DNA of 64,000 nucleotides from Methanothermobacter sp. MT-2. Its GTDB lineage: Archaea > Methanobacteriota > Methanobacteria > Methanobacteriales > DSM-23052. Positions 33,248-36,419 of this stretch are shown here, piece by piece. Positions within the stretch are counted from its first letter, which is position 1. The number at the start of each line of letters is the position of its first letter. Position numbers and translations under genes: made by a program. The stretch is from positions 187,501 to 251,500 of the forward strand of contig AP017647.1 in NCBI GenBank assembly GCA_003584625.1, read 5' to 3'. Below the pieces are notes generated by a model, which saw nothing but the letters and a program-made list of their open reading frames with translations, had not been told where the DNA came from and did no database searches.

Positions 33248-33794
33248 CGCCGGTAAAACAACCCGAGACATACTAGATGCAAAGAAAGTCATAAAAACCC
33301 TAAAAATCCAAGATAGGATAACATTCATCGACGCAGGCTGCGGTGACGGTTTCATATCCATCGAAGCCTCAAAAAACATGAAAAATGGCAAAATCTACTC
33401 AATTGACATCTATGAAAAATCCATTAACATACTAAAAAAGGCAATAAAAAAAGAAAATATCAAAAACATCACAGCAATCCTAGGAGACATAACAAAAAAA
33501 CTTCCAATCCCAGAATCAACAGCAGACATCTACTTCATGGCCAACGTACTACACGGCCTGGTGGCTAACAAGAGAATTGAACCAGCCATGAAAGAAATAA
33601 AACGGGTGCTGAAACCTAATGGTAGGTTAGCCATTGTAGAATTCAAGAAAGGGCCAAAGCCGGGGCCGCATCCAAGTCTAAGATTAGATCCTGATGAAAC
33701 CTCTAATATTTTAAAATCCTATGGTTTTCACACAATCAAAATAGAGGATGTTGGACCATACCATTACATTCTAGTGGCAAAGAGGTCAGTATAA
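33234..33794 (+). CDS. SAM-dependent methyltransferase (UbiE/Methyltransf_11 type)
   Basis: 186 residues. ITFIDAGCGDGFISIEASK is motif I (DxGCGxG), IDIYEKSINILKK motif II, FMANVLHGL and RVLKPNGRLAIVEFKKGPKPGPH motifs IV-VI. Substrate unknown; such proteins methylate small molecules or occasionally arsenic. ATG 33234 is preceded by GGAGGAAGA inside the end of dphB, so it is co-transcribed with it. Converges with the ArcS-like gene, 9 bases overlap. Confidence 0.8.
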   Translation: MKHHDAGKTTRDILDAKKVIKTLKIQDRITFIDAGCGDGFISIEASKNMKNGKIYSIDIYEKSINILKKAIKKENIKNITAILGDITKKLPIPESTADIYFMANVLHGLVANKRIEPAMKEIKRVLKPNGRLAIVEFKKGPKPGPHPSLRLDPDETSNILKSYGFHTIKIEDVGPYHYILVAKRSV

Positions 33795-34517
33795 CCTTGT
33801 ATATTTTTGGAGATACTCCTGAAATTCATCATCTAGTATGCGCAGGGCTGTCATGTTAACTGGTGAAGTGGCTGCCTTCTCCTCCACAAGATTCCTTAAA
33901 GTCCCAGATTTTATATGCTCTCTCACTTCCCTTATGACAAAATCTAGGGTCTTTTTATTGTAACTGCGAAGTTCGGCCTCCTCTAACTCATATATTTTAT
34001 ACTTGTCTAATTGGTATGAATGGTTAGGTGTCATTAGAATGTTAAGGTAACTGTAGAATTTACATATTGCATCTGTGAAGAGATCAACCCCAATATAGGC
34101 AAGTAAAGGTACGAATGAAGCTTCTGAAAATGGAAAACATAATAGCGTGTTGGGTTTTATACTTTCACGTATTCTAACAATTAATCTGACAAGGTCCATG
34201 GGTTTTGTGAGTAATTCATCACCATTGGCGATTATAAGCCTTCTAAAGCCTAGGCTTTCAAGTTTCATCGCACATTTAACTCTCAAATCAATGTATTTAC
34301 CCCCATGGATAACCGCATATTCACTATCTGAAGATCTTGCATTTTTTATTGTTTCTTTCACACTCCATTCAGCTATTTCCATGGGAACATTATATGGTAT
34401 GGGCTGATCACGTGCAAAATCTATGGATTCATATTCTATAAGTGCTGGAGTTTCCATCTCTCCCATTTTACCGAGACGGGCCGGTCCATCATGAATTTTG
34501 ATCTCGAAGCTATTCAT
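33786..34517 (-). CDS. TGT/ArcS-like protein (archaeosine pathway)
   Basis: 243 residues. DGPARLGKMGEMETPALIEY at the N-terminus and IPYNVPMEIAEWSVKETI resemble the TGT-like N-terminal domain of archaeosine synthase ArcS, which converts preQ0 at tRNA G15 to archaeosine. The full ArcS is more than twice this length and ends in a PUA domain, and neither the PUA nor the central part is seen here. It may be one subunit of a split enzyme or a paralogue. Divergent from hdrC, with a minus-strand TATA (GGTTATATACC) 30 bases before the start. Confidence 0.6.
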   Translation of the reverse strand: MNSFEIKIHDGPARLGKMGEMETPALIEYESIDFARDQPIPYNVPMEIAEWSVKETIKNARSSDSEYAVIHGGKYIDLRVKCAMKLESLGFRRLIIANGDELLTKPMDLVRLIVRIRESIKPNTLLCFPFSEASFVPLLAYIGVDLFTDAICKFYSYLNILMTPNHSYQLDKYKIYELEEAELRSYNKKTLDFVIREVREHIKSGTLRNLVEEKAATSPVNMTALRILDDEFQEYLQKYTRLY

Positions 34518-34558: not shown

Positions 34559-34581
34559 AGTGTAACCTAAAAGGTTACACT
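34559..34581. promoter_or_regulatory. Perfect 9-bp palindrome, candidate operator of the hdrC region
   Basis: AGTGTAACC (34559-34567) and GGTTACACT (34573-34581) are perfect inverted arms around TAAAA, with partial symmetry continuing outward (CCA/TGG). It sits between the two divergent TATA boxes, 18 bases upstream of the hdrC TATA and next to the one for the ArcS-like gene. This is typical of a dimeric regulator site; which regulator is unknown. Confidence 0.6.
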
Positions 34582-34598: not shown

Positions 34599-34609
34599 GC
34601 TATATATAC
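34599..34609 (+). promoter_or_regulatory. TATA box for hdrC
   Basis: GCTATATATAC lies about 63-73 bases before the upstream hdrC start at 34672, giving a leader of about 40 bases. Confidence 0.5.
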
Positions 34610-34671
34610 AGAGCACATCCAGACCCCAAATAGGGAACCAGTGACATCCCCCCAAGCAGGGCGTGAAAACA

Positions 34672-35487
34672 ATGTCAATATTAGAACGCCTAAAAAGAAT
34701 ATTAACGGGTGAGGAAGAAGCCAAAGAAAAATCAGAGGAAGTTAAAGAGAAACTTGCAGAGGCTGAAGAGAAGGTCGAAGAAAAATCAGAGGAAGTTAAA
34801 GAGAAACTTGCAGAGGCTGAAGAGAAGGTCGAAGAAAAATCAGAGGAAGTTAAAGAGGCTGAAGAATCGCCCAAAGAGGAAGCTGAAGAGGAAGAAATTG
34901 AAGAAGAAAAACCCGAAAGGAGTGATATAATGACCCTTCTAAAAGGAGAAGAAGAACTTATAAGAAGAAGCGATATAGACAAGGAATTCTCCGAGAAAGT
35001 GAAAGCAGCTGGTGGAGAAAGCCTTGAATATTGCTTCCAATGCGGAACCTGCACAGGATCCTGCCCATCAGGCAGAAGAACACCCTACAAGGTACGTCAG
35101 ATAATCAGAAAAGCAAACATGGGCCTAAAAGACCAGATTCTACCAGACCCAACCTTATGGATGTGCACAACCTGTTACGCATGCCAGGAAAGATGCCCAA
35201 GAAAAGTCAAAATAGTTGATGTCATAAAACTAATAAGGAACGAAGCAGCAAAAGCAGGATACATGTCCCCAGTACACAAAGCCGTGGGATCATTTGTTAT
35301 AAAAACAGGGCACGGAGTGCCAATAGACGACGCCACAAAACAATTAAGGGACGCTGTGGGCCTAGGAGAGCTGCCACCAACAACACATTCATTCCCAGGA
35401 GCTTTAGAAGAAGTGCAGAAGATAATAAAAACAACAGGATTCGATTCACTCATAGGATACAACTGGGAGACCGGTGAAATAGAATAA
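34672..35487 (+). CDS. hdrC: Heterodisulfide reductase subunit C with N-terminal extension
   Basis: The C-terminal 185 residues are a complete HdrC with two [4Fe-4S] motifs, [12 protein letters not shown] and [12 protein letters not shown]; with HdrA and HdrB it reduces CoM-S-S-CoB. Ahead lie about 86 acidic, coiled-coil-like residues ([18 protein letters not shown] repeated twice, then Glu-rich). The canonical start is the internal ATG 34930 ([10 protein letters not shown]), preceded by AGGAGTGAT at ideal spacing; the outer ATG 34672 has GGGCGTGA. Either two proteins are made, or the extension is a real fusion. The frame is open throughout. hdrB follows 14 bases later. Confidence 0.9.
34723..34857 (+). 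repeat. 54-base tandem repeat, 2.5 copies, in the hdrC extension
   Basis: Copy A (34723-34776) and copy B (34777-34830) differ at one base; a half copy follows (34831-34857). The unit is 18 codons, so copy-number changes keep the frame. It encodes the [18 protein letters not shown] coiled-coil-like unit. Near identity suggests a recent duplication. Confidence 0.9.
34916..34932 (+). promoter_or_regulatory. Internal ribosome binding site and start of canonical HdrC
   Basis: AGGAGTGAT followed 3 bases later by ATG 34930, inside the longer frame. It is a better site than that of the outer start and gives a 185-residue protein, the usual HdrC length. Confidence 0.75.
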
Positions 35488-35501
35488 TGGAGGCTGAAAA
35501 G

Positions 35502-36419
35502 ATGGCATTCGCATACTTTTTAGGTTGTATAATGAACAACAGGTACCCAGGGATAGAAAAAGCAACAAGAGTATTATTCGATAAACTAGGAATAGAATTA
35601 AAGGACATGGAAGGAGCATCCTGCTGCCCAGCCCCAGGAGTGTTCGGGTCATTTGACAGGACAACATGGGCATCCATCGCAGCAAGGAACATAACAATCG
35701 CAGAGGAAATGGACGCTGACCTCATGACAGAATGTAACGGATGCTTCGGTTCACTATTCGAAACAAACCACCTACTAAAAGAAAATGAAGAAATGAAAAA
35801 CAAAGTCAACGAAGTGCTCAAGGAGGTTGGCAGAGAATACAAGGGAAAAATCAATGTAAGACACTTTGCAGAAGTATTATATAATGATGTTGGACTCGAC
35901 AAATTATCAGAACTCGTTAAAAGACCACTCAATTTAAATGTGGCAGTACACTATGGCTGTCACTTTCTGAAACCAAGCGAAGAGATAGGCATAGACAACC
36001 CAGAGAATCCAACAATCCTAGATGAACTTGTAGAGGTTACAGGCGCCAAATCAGTACCATACAAGGATAAGATGATGTGCTGTGGCGCAGGTGGAGGTGT
36101 GAGATCTCGAGACCTAAATGTTGCATTAGATTTCACACGAGAGAAACTAATAAACATGCAAGAGGCAGGAGCTGATGTCATAGTCAATGTATGCCCATTC
36201 TGCCACCTACAATTCGACAGAGGACAAATAGAAATCAAAGAAGAATTCGGGGAAGAATACAACATGCCAGTACTCCACCTTGCACAACTGCTAGGACTTG
36301 CAATGGATCTTGACATAAGAGACATAGTCATAGATGCACACAATATCGAAGTCGATCCAGTGATAAGAAAGATAGAGGAATCCTTAGCCGAAAAGGATAT
36401 CACAATAGGGGGAGAATAG
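35502..36419 (+). CDS. hdrB: Heterodisulfide reductase subunit B
   Basis: 305 residues. [19 protein letters not shown] at the N-terminus and the two CCG-type motifs ([11 protein letters not shown] with later [15 protein letters not shown] with [11 protein letters not shown] and [11 protein letters not shown]) bind the non-cubane clusters where CoM-S-S-CoB is split. Partner of HdrC in the soluble HdrABC-Mvh complex; hdrA and mvh are not in the window. ATG 35502 has GGAGG upstream; an ATG at 35487 within the hdrC end is less likely. Confidence 0.95.

Follow-up and report, generated by a model that had tools for sequence, protein, structure and literature searches.

The iron-sulfur subunit HdrC begins, in most genomes of the order Methanobacteriales, with a conserved module that precedes the canonical protein in the same reading frame, and the long form of the subunit carrying it (HdrC-L) is probably tethered, most likely via the membrane, with the canonical short form (HdrC-S) likely made as well in the thermophilic and in some other lineages. 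HdrABC couples the final and the initial steps of methanogenesis in the archaea that dominate guts and digesters, and the electron-bifurcating Hdr supercomplex is taught as a cytoplasmic assembly. No description of a helix-linker module on HdrC was found in the literature searched, which likewise yielded nothing relevant on an HdrC extension, on Methanothermobacter start-site maps or on HdrC locus tags.

The window, that is, the whole stretch of 64,000 nucleotides from Methanothermobacter sp. MT-2 analysed here, contains an hdrC frame that is open from the ATG at 34672 through the ATG at 34930 to the stop ending at 35487. The in-frame extension proposed in an earlier sequence-only reading of this DNA was thus confirmed, with 86 codons (34672-34929) ahead of the 185 residues of canonical HdrC, and the internal start which that reading called intact has a strong Shine-Dalgarno (SD) sequence of its own (Table 1). 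A GTG at 34663, also in frame, was dropped as a start, since it belongs to the SD of the relatives, which in most of them reads AGGTGTG. Residues 87-271 of the long form constitute an ordinary HdrC, with the same cysteine motifs and the same position beside hdrB as the known proteins (PDB 8rvu, 5odc, 7bkb). HdrC matches the HdrC equivalog model TIGR03290 with 238 bits against a cut-off of 160 and Fer4_8 above its cut-off, the 4Fe-4S dicluster cysteines are invariant, and the closest PDB chain, 8rvu, is a full-length match to residues 1-185. The adjoining hdrB downstream carries CCG domains, and the hdrC-hdrB gene order matches that of established hdrCB operons. Met87 of the long form, the canonical Met, does not vary among 38 aligned proteins.

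Table 1. Features of the hdrC region in the window (positions counted from the first letter of the window)
Feature	Position	Strand	Remarks
Palindrome TGTAACCTAAAAGGTTACA, a putative operator in the gap that separates hdrCB from the divergent ArcS/TGT-like gene	34561..34579	.	
TATA box CTATATATA of the hdrCB promoter	34600..34608	+	72 nt 5' of the long-form ATG
Shine-Dalgarno of the long form, AGGGCGTGA	34658..34666	+	duplex energy -8.4 kcal/mol
Start codon of the long form, HdrC-L (271 aa)	34672..34674	+	Met1-Ser2 invariant
Amphipathic helix module, 14 residues, conserved	34672..34713	+	moment 0.66; R6, L7, K8, G13 conserved
Linker of 72 residues, acidic (34 Glu, 13 Lys), with predicted disorder	34714..34929	+	contains the 54-bp repeat
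54-bp tandem repeat, 2.5 copies, 100% match	34724..34857	+	in-frame 18-residue units
Internal Shine-Dalgarno of the short form, AGGAGTGAT	34918..34926	+	-10.2 kcal/mol, just 5' of 34930
Canonical HdrC, short form HdrC-S, 185 aa, two [4Fe-4S] motifs, stop included	34930..35487	+	
hdrB, downstream partner overlapping hdrC	35487..36419	+	CCG domain PF02754, two stretches

A search for HdrC across 151 genomes of the order gave 121 matches with a scorable start; no close HdrC was identified in the near-complete genomes G127, G148 and G001, where it may lie in unassembled stretches. A long in-frame extension is present in 106 of the 121 scorable genomes, distributed over 19 genera. Detailed examination covered 53 of the extended genomes, about 50 of the 106 being scored by the length of the open frame alone, and the Met-Ser start, the helix motif and an SD of the AGGTGTG type were observed in all 53. 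The extension, taken earlier for an oddity of one gene, is therefore an order-wide trait, and its conserved start, SD and helix contradict the view of the upstream segment as unconserved, untranslated sequence in the relatives. A chance open frame was rejected because of this order-wide conservation.

The 15 scorable genomes in which the extension is absent comprise 13 of the 14 scorable members of the Methanosphaera-like genus g13, together with G005 (g3) and G100 (g10); the labels Methanosphaera-, Methanothermus- and Methanobrevibacter-like were deduced, among others, from gene content and relatedness. G124, a basal g13 genome in the HdrC tree, keeps a diverged extension, MKIFRYLKKLISGEDEEE. 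The extension is also absent from Methanomassiliicoccales relatives and from the outgroup G151, a Methanothermus-like genome of 1.24 Mb and a class-level relative outside the order, in which the promoter is followed directly by AGGTGATTATC and the canonical ATG. The canonical ATG is used alone in this outgroup and in the lineages of loss. Upstream of hdrC in G100 (locus L073) and G005 (L061) lies a decayed long-form start region, with the canonical ATG still in use, and in G100 the former SD and start of the long form are recognisable yet broken. These two genomes appear to represent independent losses, and the distribution is most parsimoniously read as a single gain, in the order's common ancestor, followed by at least three losses.

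The N-terminal helix conforms to the motif MS[VIL][LIF]xRLKxLFxG, broadened over the 53 genomes to MS[VILMW][LIF]x[RT][LI]KxLFxG, with Met1-Ser2 invariant in the 38 aligned proteins and in 39 of 39 distinct N-termini. The hydrophobic residues 3, 4, 7, 10 and 11 share one 120-degree face of the helix. The mean hydrophobic moment is 0.60 for the helix against 0.31 for 12-mers of the HdrC core, although a per-sequence shuffle test gave p<0.05 in only 72% of the 39 distinct helices, and some g9 species have a helix whose net charge is as low as 0. AlphaFold2 modelling of HdrC-L (overall pLDDT 66.7) predicted a helix over residues 3-12 (pLDDT ~75), disorder over residues 17-88 (mostly pLDDT <50, about 40-50) and then the folded HdrC core.

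The linker varies in length in whole codons, giving a total extension of 71 to 202 residues with the frame open throughout. Its acidity is not universal, since the linkers of g16, g17, g18 and some g14 are close to neutral or positively charged. The 54-bp repeat is private to the window genome, its two closest relatives carrying another repeat. A conserved coiled coil and a conserved repeat were both rejected, because the linkers of relatives have no repeat in common and AlphaFold2 predicts disorder. Thus, of the repeat-containing, acidic, coiled-coil-like and fast-evolving segment described earlier, the acidity holds in the window, as does the repeat, though only there, the coiled coil gives way to disorder, and rapid evolution applies to the linker and not to the helix. 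Within genera, pN/pS is 0.08-0.40 for the helix where variable (single values being rough, as the helix has only 13 codons), 0.36-1.5 for the linker and 0.05-0.17 for the core, and the order-wide column conservation is the stronger evidence that the helix evolves under purifying selection. A degenerate DNA pattern of the motif, searched in 20 genomes, found one match each in 11, of which 10 are at hdrC and one elsewhere (G045); the sole match in the window's genome is hdrC. By every sequence criterion the extension looks translated.

The N-terminus of HdrC-L can be pictured as a tether, in which a 12-residue amphipathic helix is joined by a long, usually acidic, disordered linker to the iron-sulfur subunit. 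The helix would most likely insert into the membrane's inner face, in the way that the closely similar N-terminal helix of SepF does, and a share of the 'soluble' HdrABC supercomplex would be held at the membrane by this flexible leash. The hydrophobic face, the moment, the AlphaFold2 helix and the likeness to SepF make the membrane tether the leading reading, with protein docking as its main rival. The SepF helix, taken from Methanobrevibacter-like members of the order, was compared as MSFIDTLKRSLGY against MSVLDTLKSLLGG of HdrC, and scored over every shuffled control. In M. smithii, the membrane-binding domain of SepF, assigned to the N-terminal amphipathic helix, binds vesicles with an affinity of 43 uM, and this helix is joined to the core by a flexible linker (PMC8178401). 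Archaeal SepF of the Methanobacteriales and HdrC-L have in common the design of helix, flexible linker and core, and their helices are very similar; however, the cores are unrelated, SepF anchoring FtsZ at division and HdrC being a redox subunit, and membrane binding is demonstrated for SepF, whereas for HdrC it is a prediction. The SepF core domain PF04472 has no match in HdrC, the likeness being confined to the helix and the layout. As a lead only, we take the membrane-targeting helices of MinD and FtsA to be comparable as well, being short and amphipathic with an LKRLF-like core and a similar moment; they are found at the C-termini of proteins of cell division, while the HdrC helix is N-terminal. 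Anchoring of the Hdr complex by the extension, as proposed earlier, is the reading that fits best.

Alternatively, and with a probability that is appreciable but clearly lower, the helix may be a docking motif for a protein partner such as Fwd/Fmd, the energy-converting hydrogenase Eha or Ehb, or MvhB, the linker providing reach. Docking through a helix at the end of a disordered leash is a common arrangement, and Ser2, R6, L7, K8 and G13 are tightly conserved, with K8, R6 and S2 more so than generic membrane binding needs. In g13, where the extension is mostly absent, EhaA is missing from 20 of 20 genomes and MoaC from four of the four tested. This fit is a weak lead only, since the basal G124 keeps the extension without EhaA and G100 has EhaA without the extension; moreover, FwdC is still present in g13, and EhaA went undetected in eight genomes outside g13 that carry the extension (perhaps owing to assembly gaps). 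A comparison of FwdC, EhaA, CdhC and MoaC, made to test a tie of the extension to CO2 reduction or to Eha, singled out no partner, and no single pathway cleanly follows the losses of the tether. The resemblance of the helix to the membrane helix of SepF further argues against docking and for the membrane tether.

The start used for the long form was examined through the promoter and the SD sequences. Measured from the long-form ATG, a TATA match occurs at -61 to -103 in 52 of the 53 extended genomes. The TATA box keeps nearly the same distance from the long start throughout, and its distance from the canonical start varies with the linker; the palindrome, where present, likewise keeps a near-constant distance from the long start and not from the canonical one. 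The SD of the long form has a duplex energy of -6.3 to -9.8 kcal/mol in all 53 genomes. The spacing of both elements and the SD that is strong everywhere point to 34672 as the primary start. The palindrome lies ~110 nt 5' of the long-form ATG in the window, matching palindromes occur at -100 to -125 in 28 of the 53 genomes, and the exact pattern has 1-2 sites per matching genome against 0 for a reversed control pattern; the recurring spacing and the low copy number suggest that it is probably a dedicated operator.

Two further observations concern this upstream region. The divergent gene (33786-34517, minus strand, 243 aa) resembles the N-terminal part of archaeosine synthase ArcS/TGT, scoring far under the NCBIfam cut-offs, and a similar gene is found upstream of hdrC in G005 and G100. 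Leaders of relatives, L049, L068 and L079 among them, can form, from ~50 to 12 nt before the ATG and just upstream of the long-form SD, a kink-turn-like fold in which two short stems are stacked and an internal loop is present, with some covariation in the outer stem; leader folding z-scores are weak (mean -0.55 vs -0.36 for controls), an Rfam search of the leader returned nothing over threshold, and the window's own genus has no comparable fold.

Both starts in the window have an SD above background (Table 1), and no other in-frame position tested within hdrC, in linker or core, scores as well as the internal one. Across the order, a strong internal SD occurs in f1, f3, g2, g4, g5, g14 and g15-g18, although in g5 and g14 it is no better than expected. 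In g3, g6, g7, g8, g10 and g12 it is weak, at -2.7 to -4.1 kcal/mol, and does not exceed what synonymous recoding would give. Synonymous recodings equal or beat it in 0.4% of cases in the window's genus, in 0-1.2% in g15, g17 and g18 and in 3-8% in g2, g4, g16 and g19, values that are not independent because the lineages are related. The internal SD is strong in thermophilic lineages including that of the window and decayed in many Methanobrevibacter-like ones, so that two forms of HdrC are likely in the window and not order-wide; the earlier suggestion of two forms is plausible for the window's lineage, while the weak SDs speak against a general dual start. Judged by comparison of the genomes, the ancestral start is the one at 34930, which some lineages have retained as a second start; with its own SD it would also give an untethered, 185-residue HdrC-S in thermophilic and some other lineages, the window included.

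The same features could also belong to a leader whose translation regulates hdrCB by coupling or attenuation, with a dispensable peptide and the 185-residue HdrC alone functional. The fast evolution of the linker, deposited HdrC chains of at most 185 residues and an internal SD that exceeds synonymous expectation in several lineages would suit such a role, but it is rendered improbable by the conservation of the helix residues at the protein level across the order, by a frame open between the two starts in every genome examined and by the decay of the internal SD in g3, g6-g8, g10 and g12 while that of the long form is strong.

Classical Hdr preparations reportedly yielded an HdrC of 21 kDa. 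The deposited PDB chains of known HdrC, at 183-191 residues, are without the helix-linker module, unlike HdrC-L, and M. marburgensis HdrC is deposited at no more than 185 residues, with 185 in 8rvu and others and one 183-residue chain from Thr2 in 8rvv. Given these chain lengths, HdrC-L may be a minor form, may be removed together with the membranes during preparation, may be proteolysed or may simply lack annotation. The 185-residue and 21-kDa data fit HdrC-S made from the internal start in Methanothermobacter and are compatible with HdrC-L residing in the membrane pellet; in a 2025 study, Hdr was purified from ultracentrifuge supernatants (PMC12350162). Cleavage of HdrC-L within the linker to a mature HdrC of ~21 kDa, the extension being a pro-segment for targeting or assembly, would reconcile the conserved long frame with the 185-residue chains even in lineages with a weak internal SD, but is very unlikely, as the linkers show no conserved cleavage motif and the canonical Met is invariant and has, in many lineages, an SD of its own, for which processing would have no use.

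In its fullest form, which we put forward tentatively, the membrane-tether reading holds that the Hdr supercomplex is tethered to the membrane by a SepF-like HdrC helix, that some lineages tune the tethered share by start choice, and that the tether arose a single time, after Methanothermus-like lineages had split off, and has since disappeared from most Methanosphaera-like genomes. The helix offers a 12-residue handle for testing, and the single gain with several losses would provide natural experiments. If tethering were true order-wide, models of ferredoxin flow to Eha/Ehb and Fwd would need revision, as would in-vitro work on soluble preparations from which the membranes are discarded.
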